Shown: positions 9,512 through 18,410 of the stretch, piece by piece
Layout: every line of letters starts with the position of its first letter
Position numbering within the stretch: the first letter of the stretch is position 1
Assembly (NCBI GenBank): GCA_028700185.1
Contig: JAQVTF010000008.1
Location: 1 to 36,658, forward strand
Direction: 5' to 3'
Source: Desulfobacteraceae bacterium
GTDB taxonomy: Bacteria; Desulfobacterota; Desulfobacteria; Desulfobacterales; UBA2174
Length of the DNA stretch: 36,658 bases
Made by a program: the position numbers and the translations under genes
The notes under the pieces: generated by a model
Told to the model about the DNA's origin: nothing
What the model saw: only the letters and a program-made list of their open reading frames with translations
The model's database searches: none

Positions 9512-10828
9512 TTACAGGAAAAGAAGCCCGATGGAAATGATGATTCCCGAATAGAGCAGGGCGATGATGCAGTATCCCATGATGTCCCGGGCGTTGAGGC
9601 CGGCGATGCCCAGGGCGGGCAGCGCCCAGAACGGCTGGATCATGTTGGTCCAGGCATCCCCCCAGGCGATGGCCATGGCGGCCCGGCCCGTGTCCACGCC
9701 GATTTCCATGGCGGCCGGAATCAGGATCGGCCCCTGCACGGCCCATTGCCCGCCGCCGGACGGAACGAAGAAATTGACGATGCCGGCGCTGATAAAGCTG
9801 AAGAACGGGAAGCTGAAAGGCGTGGAGACATCGACGAACCACTGGGAAATCATGGCGGCCAGGCCGGAGCTGATCATCATGCCCATGATCCCGGCGTAGA
9901 ACGGAAACTGGAGGATGATGCCGCCGGAGCCCTTCACCGCCTCGTAAAGCGCGACGATATAGCGCCGCGGGGTCCAGTGAAAAAGGATCCCGGCGAAAAG
10001 GAAGATGAAGTTGACGATATTGAGGTTCAACGATCCGCCCTTGCCAAAGTGATAAATCAGGTAAACCACCCCACCGGCGGTGAGAATCATCGAGATGATG
10101 GGCGAGTTTTCGATCTTTTCCGCCGGCGTCCGCAGCTTGGCCGGCGTCTCCGGCGGAGCCTTGGTTTCCAGCAGCGCCGGGTCAATGGCAAACACTTCTT
10201 CTTCCGGGGGAATCATGAAACGCGCCAGGAACGGCAGGGTGACGATGAGAACGATGGCGATGATCAGGTTGTAGGGGGCGAAAATGGTCTGGCTGACAGC
10301 TATCCCGCCGGTGAGCTTGTACGACCAGTCGGTGGCAGTCGCCAGGGAGAGAGGGATCGAACCGGCCAGACCGCCATGCCAGGTCAAAAACCCCATATAG
10401 GCGGTGGCGATGATCAACCGGTAATCGAGCCCCTTGACCTGGCGGGCCATTTCCCGGCCCAGCAGGGCGCCCACCACCAGCCCGAACCCCCAGTTGATCC
10501 AACTGGCGATGGCCGCCACGAAGGCCGTGATCATCACGGCGCTGGCCGGGTTCTTGGCCGCCGCGGCGATCCCCTGGAGCACCTTCTTGATGGGCGCGCT
10601 GTTGGCCAGGGCGTGGCCGGTGACCAGGACCAGGACCATCTGCATGGAGAAGGTGAGCAGCTTCCAAAAGCCGTCGCCCCAGTGCTGCACCATCTGGTAG
10701 GGGCCGCTGTCGGTGAGAAAAACGCCCCCCAGAAAAACAACGAAGGTGAGGATGACGGCGAACAGAAACGGGTCGGGCAGGTACTTCTGAACGAGAGCGA
10801 CAAAAAATTGGGTCAGACGTCTAAACAT
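9512..10828 (-). CDS. Short-chain fatty acid transporter, AtoE family
   Basis: Inner-membrane carrier of 438 residues, related to E. coli AtoE (short-chain fatty acid uptake). It is almost entirely hydrophobic with about 12 membrane segments. Family hallmarks are the start TQFFVALVQKYLPDPFLFA, the motif WINWGFGLVVGALLGRE and the conserved loop NFFVPSGGGQWAVQGP near the C-terminus. I chose the ATG at 10828 because AAGGAG stands 6 bases upstream. It heads a minus-strand unit with an acyl-CoA ligase, an MFS carrier and a thioesterase. The 245-base leader upstream contains a promoter with an overlapping palindrome, a very short open frame and a terminator hairpin, suggesting controlled read-through. 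Confidence 0.9.
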   Translation of the reverse strand: MFRRLTQFFVALVQKYLPDPFLFAVILTFVVFLGGVFLTDSGPYQMVQHWGDGFWKLLTFSMQMVLVLVTGHALANSAPIKKVLQGIAAAAKNPASAVMITAFVAAIASWINWGFGLVVGALLGREMARQVKGLDYRLIIATAYMGFLTWHGGLAGSIPLSLATATDWSYKLTGGIAVSQTIFAPYNLIIAIVLIVTLPFLARFMIPPEEEVFAIDPALLETKAPPETPAKLRTPAEKIENSPIISMILTAGGVVYLIYHFGKGGSLNLNIVNFIFLFAGILFHWTPRRYIVALYEAVKGSGGIILQFPFYAGIMGMMISSGLAAMISQWFVDVSTPFSFPFFSFISAGIVNFFVPSGGGQWAVQGPILIPAAMEIGVDTGRAAMAIAWGDAWTNMIQPFWALPALGIAGLNARDIMGYCIIALLYSGIIISIGLLFL

Positions 10829-13125: not shown

Positions 13126-13635
13126 TCAGGTGGCCAGGTCGGCCAGTCCGAAGGGGTTGCCGCAAACCTTCCACTCCCCTTCTTCTTTCACCAGCTCGAG
13201 GGTTTCCTTCAGGTGATGGGTCTCACCGATGGAAAACAACCGGGCCACCCAGGCGAAAACGGGATTAATCGCCGTTCGGCGGGCAGCGGTGATGTGCACC
13301 AGGGCTTGTTCGCCGTCCTCGCTGAACTCGGTTTGAGAGTCCACGTGGTAGAGGTCGGCGTGCATCATGCCGAAGGAGAGACCGCGCTCCCGGGCTTCGT
13401 CGAAGCGCCGCTCCCGCAGCAGGGCCACCGGGTCGGCCTCTTCATCGCTGCGCAGATCGCTGCAGAGAAATGTGCCCATGACCGGGTCGAGCTGAAAGTA
13501 GGCCTTGGAGAAAGCGATGGCCGTGCGGTGGGGCATGGAACGACTGTCCCCGAACGCCAAGACAACTTGCACCAAAATTCCCGCCAGAACGACCAGAACG
13601 ATGGCCGTGCCCATGCTCATGTTGTTGCGGTCCAT
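13126..13635 (-). CDS. Membrane-anchored protein of unknown function next to tmc
   Basis: A 169-residue protein with one N-terminal membrane segment (about residues 8-27, AIVLVVLAGILVQVVLAF). A soluble domain follows, likely on the periplasmic side. The domain begins AIAFSKAYFQLDPVMGTFLC and ends with strands (ALVHITAARRTAIN; GEWKVCGNPFGL) resembling small NTF2-like or DUF4878-type folds, in which a beta-sheet domain measures KVxGxP-type ends. I do not recognise a specific family. The ATG at 13635 follows a strong ribosome site (GAGGAGAGAGGG). It lies 184 bases after the response regulator gene on the same strand. Two cysteines are present (in FLCSDL and KVCGN). Confidence 0.75.
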   Translation of the reverse strand: MDRNNMSMGTAIVLVVLAGILVQVVLAFGDSRSMPHRTAIAFSKAYFQLDPVMGTFLCSDLRSDEEADPVALLRERRFDEARERGLSFGMMHADLYHVDSQTEFSEDGEQALVHITAARRTAINPVFAWVARLFSIGETHHLKETLELVKEEGEWKVCGNPFGLADLAT

Positions 13636-13819
13636 GGCCCTCTCTCCTCTTTTTTCTGTAAACCGACATATCAGCAAAGATGGCAACAGACCCGGCTCGG
13701 ATCAGCTTCAGGCGCGGGCCGGTACCAAAGGGGCGGAAAAGCGCTCTTTCAAATAGCACGATCCATCCGCCCAGACAAGAGGGATGCTCATTTTGTCTGT
13801 TCGGCGGCCCATCGGTCTG

Positions 13820-14170
13820 TCAACCGATGGTATTCTTGACGATACCGATGAGTTTTTCCGGATCGAAGGGCTTCTTCACGAAGGCGATGGCCCCCTTGAT
13901 GGCGTGATCGCCGTCGATGCCGCTGACCACGATCACCGGGATGTCGCGCAGGGCCTCGTCCTGGCGCAGCTTGCGGTAAAACCGTGGCCCCCACTCGCCG
14001 GGCAACTGCAAATCAAGGGTGATCAGGTCCGGCCTTTCCGCCCGTACCACATCCATGGCATCGCCCGCGGTGCCGGCCGTGCAGGTGGCATACCCGTTGT
14101 CGCTGAACACGGCCTGAAGGTATTTCACGATCACCGGATCGTCTTCGACGATGAGGATTTTCTTCGGCAT
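13820..14170 (-). CDS. Single-domain response regulator (receiver only)
   Basis: A 116-residue CheY-like receiver with no output domain. The acidic pocket (ILIVEDDP), the phosphoacceptor aspartate in DLITLDLQLPG, the conserved switch residue in VIVVSGID and the lysine in FVKKPFDPEKL are all present. I chose the ATG at 14170 because GGAG precedes it and the sequence before it is not receiver-like. It lies 43 bases after tmcA and is probably part of that operon; D. vulgaris also has response regulators beside its tmc genes. A hairpin (CCATCGGT 13809-13816 with ACCGATGG 13823-13830) overlaps its stop codon. It has no cognate kinase in the window. Confidence 0.9.
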   Translation of the reverse strand: MPKKILIVEDDPVIVKYLQAVFSDNGYATCTAGTAGDAMDVVRAERPDLITLDLQLPGEWGPRFYRKLRQDEALRDIPVIVVSGIDGDHAIKGAIAFVKKPFDPEKLIGIVKNTIG

Positions 14171-14213
14171 GGCAGTCTCCGTGCGGTTGTTTTTGTTGGC
14201 GTTCCCCACTTGG

Positions 14214-14600
14214 TCATGGGCGCTGGTGACACTCTCCGCACATGATCGGCCCCTTGCCCTTTTCCAGGTGGCACTGCTTGCAGTTGCCATGAAAGGCATC
14301 CATCAGGGCCGGCATCCCGTCATCGGTGTCCGTTTCGGCATGGCAGTCGCTGCAACGGTAGTCTTCGCTGGATTCGTCTTCCACCAGTTGGCCATCGCGG
14401 TAAACGTGGTGACATCGGTTGCATTCGTCGATGCCGGCGGCGGTGTTGTGTTCGTCGTGCACAAACACCGCCGGTGGTCGTTGCGGTGCCATGAAGACAT
14501 CGTTGGGCACTGTCCGCATGTCTTCCTGGGCCAGAAGCGTCGTTGTCGACCACAGCACGCCGCAAGCAACGGCCAGCAACACCGTGACGAACGGTTTCAT
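14214..14600 (-). CDS. tmcA: Tetraheme cytochrome c3 of the Tmc complex (TmcA)
   Basis: Periplasmic electron carrier. The 128-residue precursor has a signal peptide (residues 1 to about 25, ending TLLAQ). Four CxxCH heme sites follow: C60-H64 (CNRCHH), C83-H87 (CSDCH), C107-H111 (CKQCH) and C121-H125 (CGECH). Additional histidines H48, H51, H65 and H104 are suitable distal ligands, giving the bis-histidine pattern of class III cytochromes. The mature protein is acidic, as in type II cytochrome c3 (TmcA), which in Desulfovibrio takes electrons from hydrogenase-linked type I cytochrome c3. GGAG precedes the ATG. It follows tmcB by 60 bases. In Desulfovibrio tmcA is the first gene; here it is the fourth. 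Confidence 0.9.
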   Translation of the reverse strand: MKPFVTVLLAVACGVLWSTTTLLAQEDMRTVPNDVFMAPQRPPAVFVHDEHNTAAGIDECNRCHHVYRDGQLVEDESSEDYRCSDCHAETDTDDGMPALMDAFHGNCKQCHLEKGKGPIMCGECHQRP

Positions 14601-14660
14601 TGAGTCTCCTTGTCGAAATCGCTTGGATCGGTTCTCGTCGCACAGTGGCGGAAATGCGCG

Positions 14661-15998
14661 CTACGCCCCCGGTTTTTCCATCACCTCGTAGATGATATCG
14701 CCGAAAAACTTGATATCCAAACCCAGCTCGTAGGCATGGTTGATATCCTCCAGCCCGCTGTGGCAGTTGTGGCAGGGAGCGATGAGGACCTTGGCGCCCC
14801 GGATCTTGGCATCGGCCAGCTGATCGGCCTTGACCCGGTTGCCCTCGATGCGCTTGTTTTTCCATGGCGGGCCGCAGTTGATCACGCCACCCCCGGCGCA
14901 GCAGCAGTAATTGTGCTCGCAGTTGGGGTACATCTCCACCACCTCTTCACAGATGGCATGGGCCACTTCCCGGGCCATGTGGTGCAACCCGGCACCGCGT
15001 ACCACGTTGCACGGGTCGTGGATCGTCACCGGGGTCTGAAACTTCTTGGCCACCCGGATTTTGCCGCTGGTGAGCAGCTCGTGATAAAACTCGATGGCAT
15101 GAATGATGGGAATCGGCGGAATGCGCCACCCGAGCCAGCGGTTGCCCACGTCGTAGACCGACCGGAACGCATGGCCGCATTCGCCCATCACGATGCGGCG
15201 TACCCGCAGCCGGGCCGCGGTTTCGAAATGCTCCCGCTTGATGCGGCCCATCACCTCGTTGTCACCGGTGTACATGGCCATGTCGCTGTTGTCCCAGCCC
15301 GCCGTGGCCGGCATGGTCCAGTTGACACCGGCCATATCCATGATCATCGCCGCCTGGTAGATCAGTTGAGCCTGGAATTTGGGTTCGGGGCCGATGACCG
15401 AGTACATGATGTCGGCCCCTTCCTTTTCCAGGGGAATGCGCAGGGTGGGAATCTCGCCCCGGGCCTCCTCCTCCTGCCATTGCAGGGTATCGGGCCACTC
15501 GTCCGGCTTCACCCACATCTGGTTGGAGACCGCCGCATGGCTGTGGGCCGTATCCTGGATATACTGAGGGGTCATGCCCAGCAGGTGAACGATACGCCGC
15601 ACCACCAGCATCAGGTAGGCGATATCGATACCGAAGGGGCAATACATGGCGCAGCGCTTGCACAGATTGCACTCGGTGTGAGCAATTTCCGCGGCCCGGC
15701 GCATGAAATCGACACTGACGCGCCCATCGCGACGGATCATCTCCCAGAGCGTCTGCTTGACCTTGGCCACCGGCGAATAGCGGGGGTCCTTGTCGTGGGA
15801 GAGGTAGTAATGGCAGGCATCGGAACAGAGACCGCAGTGCACGCAAGTATCCACGTAGACCTTGAGCCGCGCCCCGCTCTCTCCCTTGAGCACGCGATGG
15901 ATCACCGCCTGGATCCGTTCTTCGGTGAGCCCGGCGGCCCCTTTTTCGATCCCGGGATCGACAATCTGTTTGGCTTCGCTCTTGGCGGATTGCGCCAC
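14661..15998 (-). CDS. tmcB: Tmc complex Fe-S subunit, HdrD-like (TmcB)
   Basis: Cytoplasmic-side iron-sulfur subunit of 445 residues, related to heterodisulfide reductase HdrD. Two 4Fe-4S ferredoxin motifs are near the N-terminus: C52-C55-C58-C62 (CVHCGLCSDAC) and C110-C113-C116-C120 (CNLCKRCAMYC). The C-terminal half has CCG-type cysteine-rich regions: GECGHAF and HDPCNVV, then YCCCAGGGVINCG and APCHNCHSG, the likely non-cubane cluster site. Translation most likely starts at a GTG (15996-15998) placed 7 bases after AGGAGG. The gene follows tmcC by 64 bases. The thiol/disulfide partner (for example DsrC-like) is inferred from the family and is not encoded here. Confidence 0.92.
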   Translation of the reverse strand: MAQSAKSEAKQIVDPGIEKGAAGLTEERIQAVIHRVLKGESGARLKVYVDTCVHCGLCSDACHYYLSHDKDPRYSPVAKVKQTLWEMIRRDGRVSVDFMRRAAEIAHTECNLCKRCAMYCPFGIDIAYLMLVVRRIVHLLGMTPQYIQDTAHSHAAVSNQMWVKPDEWPDTLQWQEEEARGEIPTLRIPLEKEGADIMYSVIGPEPKFQAQLIYQAAMIMDMAGVNWTMPATAGWDNSDMAMYTGDNEVMGRIKREHFETAARLRVRRIVMGECGHAFRSVYDVGNRWLGWRIPPIPIIHAIEFYHELLTSGKIRVAKKFQTPVTIHDPCNVVRGAGLHHMAREVAHAICEEVVEMYPNCEHNYCCCAGGGVINCGPPWKNKRIEGNRVKADQLADAKIRGAKVLIAPCHNCHSGLEDINHAYELGLDIKFFGDIIYEVMEKPGA

Positions 15999-16062
15999 GA
16001 TGCCACCTCCTCATGAAGAAAGACCGGCGCCGGAAGTGTCCCTGACCTGCTCCCGGGGTCGG

Positions 16063-16722
16063 CTACCAGTCGACGGCGTGCCGTACGCCGCCGAACTCAC
16101 TGCCCATGTAGGCCCGGGTCAGCGGTGCAAAGAGCATGTGCACCAACCGGGTGAAGGGAATCGCCACCAGCAGGACCTGCCCGGAGACGATGTGGGCCAC
16201 CAGCATCCAGCGATAAGCGAAGAGCTGATGGTAAGCGATGAACCCGGTGACAAACGGCGCCGCCACCAGGGCCAGCAGCAGGTAATCGGAAGTCGAGGTG
16301 ACAAAGCGCACCTCCGGCCGGACGATCCGCCGGACGAGGAAAAAGACGGCGCCGGCCATGACGACCATCGTCATCCCGTCGGCCACGACATCCGGCAGGC
16401 TCGGCCAGCCCAGGCCCCAGGCCTCCTCGAACAACAACGCATGGGCCATCAGAAAGATGGGCGCCGCCAGCAGGCAGATGTGAAAGGCGAAGGTCACGAT
16501 GGTCATCACCGGATGCAGGCGCCAGTTCACCGTGCCGAAGGGCAAAAGCCAATGCAGGATCGAGCGCAGACCGTACTTGAAGCTCATGTAGCTGAAGATG
16601 AACGGTTCCTTGCGCCGGATGAGCACCAGCAACTGCGCCAGCCGGTAAAGCAGCCCCCCGAAGAAGAGCACAAAGGCGATCCAGGTCAACGGTCCGGTGA
16701 CCCATCCGTATATCGGGTGCAT
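16063..16722 (-). CDS. tmcC: Tmc complex cytochrome b subunit, NarI-like (TmcC)
   Basis: Membrane subunit of 219 residues with about five transmembrane helices (near residues 8-28, 70-95, 112-132, 147-168 and 172-198). Several histidines lie within or at the ends of helices (H57, H70, H81, H94, H165, H177, H195) and can ligate b hemes, as in NarI/DsrM-type quinone-interacting subunits. The family shuttles electrons between quinone, periplasmic cytochrome and cytoplasmic Fe-S subunits. I chose the ATG at 16722 with AAGGAAAAGG upstream; it starts 10 bases after the tmcD stop codon, indicating one operon. Confidence 0.88.
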   Translation of the reverse strand: MHPIYGWVTGPLTWIAFVLFFGGLLYRLAQLLVLIRRKEPFIFSYMSFKYGLRSILHWLLPFGTVNWRLHPVMTIVTFAFHICLLAAPIFLMAHALLFEEAWGLGWPSLPDVVADGMTMVVMAGAVFFLVRRIVRPEVRFVTSTSDYLLLALVAAPFVTGFIAYHQLFAYRWMLVAHIVSGQVLLVAIPFTRLVHMLFAPLTRAYMGSEFGGVRHAVDW

Positions 16723-16732
16723 GGCCTTTTCC

Positions 16733-17995
16733 TTATGCGAGCAGTTGATCCACGGCAAGAACCTGGCGCCGGTAGGTTCCCTTTTCGATGCCCCGCACCA
16801 ACATCCGGGTGCCGTCGGGAGAAAACACCGGTTGCCAGAGGGCTTGATAGGATTGAGGCATCCGGTGGTCGTTCACCACCAGGGCAAACCGCCCCTCGGT
16901 TTCCCCCACCATCGCCACCAGACGGCCGTCCGGGCTGAAGACCGGGGCACGAACCTGATCGAAGCCCTGACGCCAGAGGCCGTCGTCCACCATGAGGGTC
17001 CAGCGACCGTCGTGCTTGGCCGTGGCGGCCACGCGGCGGCTGTCCGGACTGAAGCGCAGGTCCATGATCATTTCGTTGACCGTGGTGCGCCACGATTCGC
17101 CGTCCAGGGCCAAGGTCCAGTATCCATAGCGGGGCGATACGATGGCCGCCAGCCGCCGCCCGTCGGGACTCACCTGCTGGTGCCAGGCCTGGACAAAGCG
17201 CTGGGGCCAGATGGGCGCCCCGTCGGCGGCCAGGGTCCACTGCCCGTCCAGGCGCACCGGGGCGATCACCGCGCCCGAGGCGGGGTGAAAGATCGGCTGC
17301 CAGACGCTGGAAAAGCTTCGCTCCCAGGGGCGGCCGTCCACGGCGATGGTGTAATCGTAGAGCCCCTGGCGCACCTCGGCGGCCAGGCGGGTGCCGTCGG
17401 CGCTGAAGGCCAGGTGCCACACGTTGGTAAAGGCGTTGTCCCACACCTCCCCGTCCAGGGCCGCCGAATAGCAGCCGGCCTGGAAACGGGCGATATCCGC
17501 TTCGCCGATCTCCTTGACCTGAACGGTGGCCGCGGTGTGCCGGCCGTCTGGGCTGAGGGCGAAGTGGGTCATGTTGGAGAACCGATTTTCCCACATAACC
17601 CCGTCCAGGGCCATGGCGTAGGCCATGTCCTGCTGGGCCGCAGCGGCGATGTGGGCGCCGTCGGCGCTGAACAGGGTGTTCCAGACGTAGCCATAGCGAT
17701 CCGGCCAGGTCTCGCCGTCCACCGCCACGGTCCACTCCCCGTCCTCGGAGACGAGGACACTGAGCCGGCCGTCCGGAGAAAACCGCAGGTACCAGGCTTT
17801 GTCGAATATCCCGTCCCAGGGTTGACCGTTGACGCAGACGCTGAACTGGGCCTCGTCGATGTTGACCACAGCGGCGATCCGCTCTCCGTCCGGGCTGATA
17901 TAAGGTTCTTCCACCCAGGCGAAATCGGCCTTCCAGGCATCGAAGGGAATTGTCTTGGTGCCGATCTCCCAATCCCAGCGCGATACGTCGGCCAT
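16733..17995 (-). CDS. tmcD: Tmc complex Trp-rich propeller protein (TmcD)
   Basis: A 420-residue protein without signal peptide or membrane helix. It is made of about eight repeats of roughly 45 residues, each following the pattern DG..W...F.....L.FSPDGR..AA.V. Examples are FDKAWYLRFSPDGRLSV, DNAFTNVWHLAFSADGTRL and RQGFDQVRAPVFSPDGRLV. These are WD40/PD40-like beta-propeller blades, and tryptophan is very frequent, as described for TmcD of Desulfovibrio. I chose the ATG at 17995 because AGGAGG is 5 bases upstream; coding character starts there. It is the first gene of the operon here, whereas it is last in Desulfovibrio. Its role in the complex is not established. Confidence 0.85.
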   Translation of the reverse strand: MADVSRWDWEIGTKTIPFDAWKADFAWVEEPYISPDGERIAAVVNIDEAQFSVCVNGQPWDGIFDKAWYLRFSPDGRLSVLVSEDGEWTVAVDGETWPDRYGYVWNTLFSADGAHIAAAAQQDMAYAMALDGVMWENRFSNMTHFALSPDGRHTAATVQVKEIGEADIARFQAGCYSAALDGEVWDNAFTNVWHLAFSADGTRLAAEVRQGLYDYTIAVDGRPWERSFSSVWQPIFHPASGAVIAPVRLDGQWTLAADGAPIWPQRFVQAWHQQVSPDGRRLAAIVSPRYGYWTLALDGESWRTTVNEMIMDLRFSPDSRRVAATAKHDGRWTLMVDDGLWRQGFDQVRAPVFSPDGRLVAMVGETEGRFALVVNDHRMPQSYQALWQPVFSPDGTRMLVRGIEKGTYRRQVLAVDQLLA

Positions 17996-18077: not shown

Positions 18078-18106
18078 TTTATACCGACTTCAGATTGAAA
18101 AAGCAA
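18078..18106 (-). promoter_or_regulatory. Probable sigma-70 promoter of the tmc operon
   Basis: On the minus strand TTGCTT (18106-18101) and TATAAA (18083-18078) are exactly 17 bases apart, about 80 bases before tmcD. The start site would be near 18071. A hairpin (GGCGGC 18056-18061 with GCCGCC 18069-18074) then forms the extreme 5' end of the message. The promoter lies just past the terminator of the upstream tRNA genes. Confidence 0.6.
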
Positions 18107-18176: not shown

Positions 18177-18211
18177 AAAAAAAGGCCCGACCGAAAATCC
18201 GGTCGGGCCTT
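18177..18211 (-). terminator. Rho-independent terminator of the tRNA-Ser pair
   Basis: AAGGCCCGACCG (18182-18193) and CGGTCGGGCCTT (18200-18211) form a perfect 12-bp stem with a 6-base loop. On the minus strand a run of seven T follows. It lies 12 bases after the CCA end of the tRNA-Ser(GCU) gene. Confidence 0.9.
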
Positions 18212-18222
18212 GGCAGACAAGG

Positions 18223-18314
18223 TGGCGGAGAGAGAGGGATTCGAACCCTCGGTGCAGTTTTCCCGCACACTCGCTTAGCAGGCGAGCGCCTTCAGCCGAC
18301 TCGGCCATCTCTCC
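18223..18314 (-). tRNA. tRNA-Ser (anticodon GCU)
   Basis: Class II tRNA of 92 bases with the CCA end encoded. The acceptor stem GGAGAGA pairs with TCTCTCC. The D-arm begins TGGCCGAGTCGG, and the anticodon arm has CTGCTAA with anticodon GCT. A long variable arm follows, and the T-loop is GGTTCGAATCC. It reads serine AGC/AGU codons. Confidence 0.95.
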
Positions 18315-18324
18315 ATAGCGACGT

Positions 18325-18410
18325 TGGCGGAGGGAGTAGGATTCGAACCCACGGAGCTTTCGCTCAACGGTTTTCAAGACCGCCGCCTTCAACCACTCGG
18401 CCATCCCTCC
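18325..18410 (-). tRNA. tRNA-Ser (anticodon UGA)
   Basis: Class II tRNA of 86 bases with the CCA end encoded. The acceptor stem GGAGGGA pairs with TCCCTCC. The anticodon loop has CTTGAAA with anticodon TGA, followed by a serine-type long variable arm and T-loop GGTTCGAATCC. It reads serine UCN codons. It sits 10 bases upstream of the tRNA-Ser(GCU) gene, so both are one transcript. Confidence 0.95.

Follow-up and report, generated by a model that had tools for sequence, protein, structure and literature searches.

A tmc operon in standard gene order and its linked DVU0259-family receiver in a Desulfobacteraceae bacterium

In Desulfovibrio, the transmembrane complex Tmc is described in passages of PMC4215793 as being reduced by Tp1-c3/hydrogenase and passing electrons across the membrane; the same passages report it as important for H2 oxidation in D. 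alaskensis and propose that the electrons reach DsrC. The locus tags of D. vulgaris ascend from TmcA (DVU_0263) to TmcD (DVU_0266) in a passage of PMC10920352, and the name order "TmcBCA", which may list subunits and not genes, is given for Desulfobacterium autotrophicum in a passage of PMC2702500. Tmc operons without TmcA are mentioned in a passage on methane-linked sulfate reducers (PMC10553843). The tmc and hmc genes of D. multivorans lie beside regulators, a universal stress protein (Usp) and kinases, and are likened to those of D. vulgaris Hildenborough in a passage of PMC5109826. A figure legend of PMC10924467 names rrf1 and rrf2 as regulators of hmc expression, and hmc with rrf1-rrf2, cited there, is the sole genetic precedent met in our searches of titles, abstract starts and passages. 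Here we analyse a tmc operon, and the stand-alone receiver gene of the DVU0259 family that ends it, in 36,658 nucleotides from a Desulfobacteraceae bacterium (contig JAQVTF010000008.1 of assembly GCA_028700185.1). This whole stretch is called the window below.

The window locus is an ordinary tmc operon in the standard transcription order D-C-B-A. On the minus strand, tmcD-tmcC-tmcB-tmcA-receiver run from 17995 to 13820 with intergenic gaps of 10, 64, 60 and 43 nt, a purine-rich Shine-Dalgarno-like stretch precedes the start of each of the five genes, and all five proteins exceed curated NCBIfam cut-offs, which for the four Tmc subunits are equivalog cut-offs (Table 1). The original prediction, made from the sequence alone, of five closely spaced genes D-C-B-A-receiver on one strand is therefore borne out by the coordinates, the gaps of 10-64 nt and the NCBIfam scores. 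The four CxxCH motifs of TmcA mark it as a tetrahaem type II cytochrome c3, with a hydrophobic N-terminal signal recognised by eye, and the receiver aligns over residues 1-116 to positions 1-117 of the 117-position model NF045717. The closest TmcB proteins among the best 80 of 459 titled loci, 95% and 92% identical, come from two Desulfobacteraceae bins.

The same prediction regarded this order as the reverse of an A-B-C-D order in Desulfovibrio. Three samples bear on this claim. For the phylum sample, 395 genomes were profile-searched for TmcB, with 87 at E<=1e-100 (a set that takes in HmcF-type matches) and 33 over the cut-off; its 80 regions take in the places scoring higher than about 410 bits, plus a part of those that scored lower. 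The titled (named) sample was limited to the 80 best of 459 loci, which are thus close to the window. The third sample consists of 40 TmcD regions of a Desulfovibrio-like family, the family of genome G040, hand-picked for spread over genera. Local profiles, built partly from loci later scored, gave 168 distinct TmcB loci of at least 600 bits; the genome of D. vulgaris Hildenborough lies outside the sample.

At 143 of the 168 loci tmcD precedes tmcC-tmcB, with all three genes on one strand. The other 25 are five extra TmcB copies upstream of a D-C-B set and 20 loci without TmcD in the fetched stretch. The order A-B-C-D occurs at none of the 168 loci, and B-C-A was not seen among the loci surveyed. 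All 40 Desulfovibrio-like regions are D-C-B-A. Among them are the tmc regions of the five genomes of one genus; the cytochrome c3 of this genus shares 85-89% identity with the D. vulgaris query and matches PDB entries 1it1 and 1a2i, which we take to be D. vulgaris Miyazaki and Hildenborough. A genuine inversion, in which an ancestral A-B-C-D operon was turned round and its receiver retained, would suit the subunit letters and the D. vulgaris locus tags, both running from A to D (PMC10920352, in the passage cited above), but with no A-B-C-D locus and 40 Desulfovibrio-like regions in the D-C-B-A order it is refuted within the sample, and we give it next to no chance. The ascending locus tags may be what led A-B-C-D to be taken as the transcription order. 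Judged from titles, abstract starts and passages, our literature searches met no survey of tmc transcription order, and the false lead of a reversed operon is replaced by a survey fact: in this sample tmc is transcribed D-C-B-A. Two unusual arrangements were also observed. L067 has D-C-B, a TmcA gene that precedes tmcD but is encoded on the other strand, and just a weak TmcA match after tmcB, and L230 has two complete tmc operons in tandem, D-C-B-A-D-C-B-A.

The receiver is tied to tmc far beyond this one locus. The presence call required at least 180 local bits, receivers of 130-180 bits (e.g. at L058, L060 and L061) being counted as absent. A DVU0259-type receiver is present at 87 of 127 decidable loci, the other 41 of the 168 being undecidable near contig ends; it lies within 400 nt after TmcA/TmcB at 60 loci, further down within 8 kb at 24 and elsewhere at three. 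Across the 395 genomes, NF045717 matched 22 at E<=1e-38 (15 over the cut-off), and all 22 fall among the 87 genomes with a TmcB-profile match, HmcF-type matches included (hypergeometric 3.5e-16, uncorrected for relatedness). Nineteen of the 27 NF045717 places are within 8 kb of a TmcB/HmcF-type place. Receiver and TmcB distances are correlated (rho 0.73; 81 loci, selected because they have a receiver; maximum of 0.21 in 300 permutations). Among decidable loci the receiver is present in 55 of 59 titled Desulfobacterales, 17 of 37 in the Desulfovibrio-like family and 15 of 31 in the phylum sample. The link between receiver and tmc is real, inherited and lineage-dependent, and it is not universal. 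Since the stand-alone receiver is linked far beyond chance and is co-inherited with tmc, a functional, probably regulatory, link is likely; the original prediction had suggested a functional link, for example in redox or electron-flow signalling. Of its statement that the association was retained despite a rearrangement, the association stands (87 of 127 loci, co-divergence) and the rearrangement does not, D-C-B-A being the norm. Chance adjacency in the window lineage could draw on the abundance of receivers, with 49 receiver-domain matches in the window genome (3.29 Mb), one of which, the tmc-adjacent receiver, exceeds the NF045717 cut-off; linkage that holds in the named, family and phylum samples and in the genome-wide search, together with the correlated divergence, makes it very improbable.

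We propose that the window holds an ordinary tmc operon whose DVU0259-family receiver is a kinase-fed relay or hub controlling tmc, and hmc where present, and we give this reading a probability of roughly 0.55. Electrons would pass from periplasmic cytochrome c3 to TmcA, TmcC and TmcB, probably toward DsrC, as proposed for Desulfovibrio. The kinases of a linked cassette, a REC-PAS-HATPase protein and a PAS kinase, would phosphorylate the receiver, which would in turn set the transcription of tmc (and of hmc); in some lineages an Rrf2-type DNA-binding partner would be the output. Gene content and order, linkage, correlated divergence, the conserved phospho-site, the fusion described below and a model without alpha4 are observed; phosphorylation, the partners and the control of tmc are what we infer from them. 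The proposal offers a testable idea for how sulfate reducers set the supply of their membrane electron-moving complexes.

The genes around 98 distinct DVU0259-type receivers were compared. According to Pfam on one protein each, the K-type gene encodes receiver-PAS-HATPase, the H-type HAMP-PAS-HisKA-HATPase, the S-type a PAS-sigma54 activator and U a Usp. The window type, with TmcA before and no scored gene after, accounts for 36 of the 98, and another 36 have a K-type kinase gene directly after on the same strand. The gene before these 36 receiver-K pairs is TmcA in 13 cases, a second receiver in 10, Usp in seven, a c-type gene in three and an H-type gene in one, with nothing scored in two. 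The rest comprise six Rrf2 fusions divergent from tmcD, eight receivers at contig ends, three preceded by TmcA and followed by K on the opposite strand, and nine single or double cases. The receiver frames behind Usp in L210-L214, all of the D. vulgaris-like genus, have 311-364 aa and more than 300 bits, as if two receivers were joined.

The window receiver is a single Pfam domain over 116 aa with no output domain. Its phospho-site is complete and canonical, with acceptor D53, acidic E9/D10/D11, S83 and K100; D53 is found in 100% and K100 in 99% of 99 receivers. The AlphaFold2 model, a predicted and not a solved structure (mean predicted local distance difference test, pLDDT, 92.8; about 75 at residues 81-90), has alpha1-3 and alpha5 and no helix between beta4 (79-83) and beta5 (96-99). 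Consistent with a short stretch here, the Ser/Thr-to-Lys spacing is 17 in the window (S83-K100), 17-18 in 89 of 92 family members and in five of six fusions. The spacing control is thin: 8 of 125 kinase receivers were parsed (22-23), as were 14 of 52 other receivers below 100 bits (five at 23, nine at 30). Eighteen receivers of 100-180 bits gave 18 in four, 20 in two, 30 in five, 10 in one and none in six. Rec-only relay intermediaries with missing helices or alpha4 (Sma0114, SdrG) are described in a passage of PMC9981736, where the alpha4-beta5-alpha5 face is probably not needed. The closest solved folds are the receivers of DivK, FrzS and KdpE, a result that would also suit a general relay, a hub like Spo0F or MrrA with its targets elsewhere and its location at tmc providing suitable expression. 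Single-domain receivers are hubs elsewhere (PMC9981736, same passage), and the 36 receivers with tmcA before and no scored gene after fit such a role. It is nonetheless hard to square with linkage to both tmc and hmc, with divergence correlated with that of TmcB and with a fusion lying divergently in front of tmcD, and we think it unlikely.

A related receiver is found at hmc. Each of the five genomes of the D. vulgaris-like genus has two NF045717 matches, the tmc-linked one at 194 bits and the other at 127-130 bits, 231-266 bp after hmcF. In all three hmc regions examined (L259-L261) an Rrf2 gene follows the post-hmcF receiver, an arrangement that corresponds to the rrf1-rrf2 named in the figure legend of PMC10924467. 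The three Rrf1-position receivers have a Ser/Thr-to-Lys spacing of 18, that is, the same shortened beta4-beta5 stretch, and the DVU0259 receiver is, as judged from sequence, related to them. The receiver tree was made by a quick method from 126 columns, leaves 45 of 77 inner branches open, and carries group labels set from the locus (L258, labelled tmc-linked, is a contig start); thinning left a single Rrf1 row in this tree, a long branch whose place is not settled.

In one other genus of the family, all six tmc regions examined (L093, L099, L215-L218) carry an Rrf2-receiver fusion divergent from tmcD. Pfam on one fusion protein gave Rrf2 at 24-154 and the receiver at 221-328. A C-X6-C-X5-C set is kept in all six and, by analogy with Rrf2 proteins, could be an iron-sulphur (Fe-S) site; the L218 fusion sits in a 1697-aa open frame that leaves its N-terminal boundary uncertain. 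Four fusion rows remain in the tree after thinning; they form one branch (96*), nested in a seven-member group (98*) whose other receivers come from the same genus. In the three hmc regions examined in this genus (L262-L264) Rrf2 comes after hmcF with no receiver between, and L265-L267 show a weaker receiver (119-122 bits) at another site, accompanied by kinases and two Rrf2 genes. No report of an Rrf2-receiver fusion was met in our literature searches, which covered titles, abstract starts and passages.

These receivers also bear on the idea that the receiver binds the Tmc complex, say by way of TmcD or TmcB at its cytoplasmic face, and tunes electron flow after translation or reports redox state. 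Its position directly after tmcA in the window, and close behind TmcA/TmcB at the 60 loci counted above, would suit such binding, and TmcD is a large propeller, a common docking fold: 10 WD40/PD40-like repeats of the SPDG type were counted, no signal peptide was seen by eye, the AlphaFold2 model is a confident beta-propeller (mean pLDDT 95.7), and the rows displayed from a fold search are propellers of many kinds only (best Z 14.6, TMq <=0.49, TMt <=0.51). However, family members follow hmcF where no TmcD was found (L250, L251, L259-L261), and one receiver group is fused to an Rrf2 DNA-binding domain. Binding to Tmc appears improbable to us; judging from the fusion and from the neighbouring genes, its partners are more likely kinases and an Rrf2-type DNA-binding domain than TmcD.

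Several observations weigh against a kinase-fed relay controlling tmc. No receiver over the threshold was found in 40 of the 127 decidable loci, each with at least 8 kb of sequence, including 20 of 37 in the Desulfovibrio-like family. Eight of the 27 NF045717 places are not near TmcB/HmcF, seven of them on contigs without one (at one of them, G297:C21, the receiver lies at the start of the contig, between Usp and K) and one at 890 kb. No kinase adjoins the window receiver, and the best K-type match in the window genome is a receiver half (61% identity) that lies next to an H-type kinase where contig C47 ends. The cassette of the window organism may be dispersed, partly lost or unlinked by assembly, the receiver alone staying with tmc as in L127 and L128. 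Rrf2 (PF02082) had no match at E<=1e-5 in the window assembly (94.8% complete), 12 of 14 control genomes being positive, and Rrf2 was rejected as the output of the receiver in this organism. A separate HmcF was not found in the window genome at E<=1e-60, the sole HmcF-profile match being TmcB. Upstream of tmcD a sigma54 site is not enriched (mean best score 10.66 against 10.58 in shuffled sequences, 145 regions), and sigma54 control of tmcD was rejected; no mention of tmc or of four locus terms was found in the sigma54 regulome paper PMC4641369. Finally, a passage of PMC9981736 lists not-yet-activated PhoB and a hybrid kinase as lacking alpha4 too, and therefore the loss of this helix alone is no proof of a relay role.

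More tentatively, and with somewhat more doubt than belief, the DVU0259/Rrf1-type receivers might be one alpha4-less phospho-hub family that sulfate reducers devote to their transmembrane electron-transfer complexes and that brings kinase signals together with an Fe-S-type Rrf2 sensor to keep Tmc and Hmc in balance; hub and DNA-binding domain would have merged in one genus, facing tmcD.

Table 1. Coordinates and assignments of the features of the window and of one Rrf2-receiver fusion outside it.
Feature	Position	Strand	Description
tmcD	16733..17995	-	420 aa beta-propeller; NF045725 594.7 bits (cut-off 440); Pfam PD40/WD40
tmcC	16063..16722	-	219 aa NarI-like membrane cytochrome b-type anchor; NF045723 325.6 bits (cut-off 240); PF02665
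tmcB	14661..15998	-	445 aa cytoplasmic Fe-S protein, CCG domain, GTG start; NF045724 828.4 bits (cut-off 735); PF02754, PF13183
tmcA	14214..14600	-	128 aa type II cytochrome c3; NF045722 156.2 bits (cut-off 114); PF02085 51.5 bits
Receiver	13820..14170	-	116 aa, stand-alone, DVU0259 family; NF045717 (DVU0259_DivK) 176.1 bits (cut-off 160)
Putative sigma70-like promoter	18078..18106	-	TTGCTT, 17 nt, TATAAA; by-eye comparison, weak evidence
Terminator-like hairpin	18182..18211	-	13 pairs then T run; after tRNA-Ser(GCT)
Two tRNA-Ser genes (GCT, TGA)	18223..18410	-	ARAGORN; upstream flank, outside the tmc system
Downstream gene	13126..13686	-	186 aa open reading frame; NF051431 match under cut-off; not counted in the operon
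Rrf2-receiver fusion, L093	6078-7085	-	divergent from tmcD

A stretch resembling the putative promoter in Table 1 is also present upstream of tmcD in the two nearest relatives, L127 and L128. A consensus promoter scan did not return this stretch, its sole match lying inside tmcB against 1.2 in shuffles. The strong hairpin before it would separate the tRNA unit from tmc. The family of the 186-aa downstream gene also follows the receiver in L127 and L128; this gene and an HD-domain gene lie behind the window receiver (13686-12273, minus strand), and the same pair is near tmc in several loci.

Variants of the Tmc subunits were also noted. At 13 of 167 loci (L056-L058, L060, L061, L063-L065, L068, L070-L073) a 16-17-haem HmcA-like cytochrome follows tmcB in place of the four-haem TmcA, and L096 has both. 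The two genes behind the HmcA-like gene in L058 and L064 also follow HmcA-like genes in hmc loci, and these two loci are possible Tmc-Hmc hybrids. In family f39, TGA interrupts the TmcB frame at the very codon that in other TmcB encodes the ECGH cysteine, C274 of the window protein (L074 9284-10621, plus strand; L076 2787-4232, plus; L077 9256-10653, minus), and these proteins probably contain selenocysteine. At 10095/10096 of L099, TAG cuts the TmcB frame at a non-cysteine position, which may reflect a damaged gene or an assembly error. A PDB sequence search with the TmcB profile gave nothing at 1e-20.

Compared with tmc of D. vulgaris Hildenborough (DVU_0263-0266), the window has the same four subunits and, by NCBIfam, the same receiver family; DVU0259 itself is presumably near tmc there, going by its locus number. 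The window shares D-C-B-A with the genomes whose cytochrome c3 is closest to that of D. vulgaris. Their receiver is further down, in a run X-Usp-receiver-kinase, whereas the window receiver follows tmcA by 43 nt and has no adjoining kinase. The tmc1-hmc region of Desulfococcus multivorans, as far as the cited passage describes it, has the same kind of signalling genes, of which the window keeps the receiver only, with no Hmc, Usp or kinase beside it. Relative to hmc with rrf1-rrf2, the window has a related receiver with the same shortened beta4-beta5 stretch (3/3), but unlike Rrf1 this receiver is neither encoded directly after hmcF nor paired with Rrf2, and its genome has no separate HmcF or Rrf2 match. 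Like Sma0114 and SdrG, it is a stand-alone receiver with a complete phospho-site and no alpha4 in the model; it has KPFDPEK and not the PFxFATG[G/Y] motif, and we claim no membership of the FATGUY type. Against these systems the association of receiver and tmc is largely known already, and the loss of alpha4 and the Rrf2-receiver fusion are the new leads.

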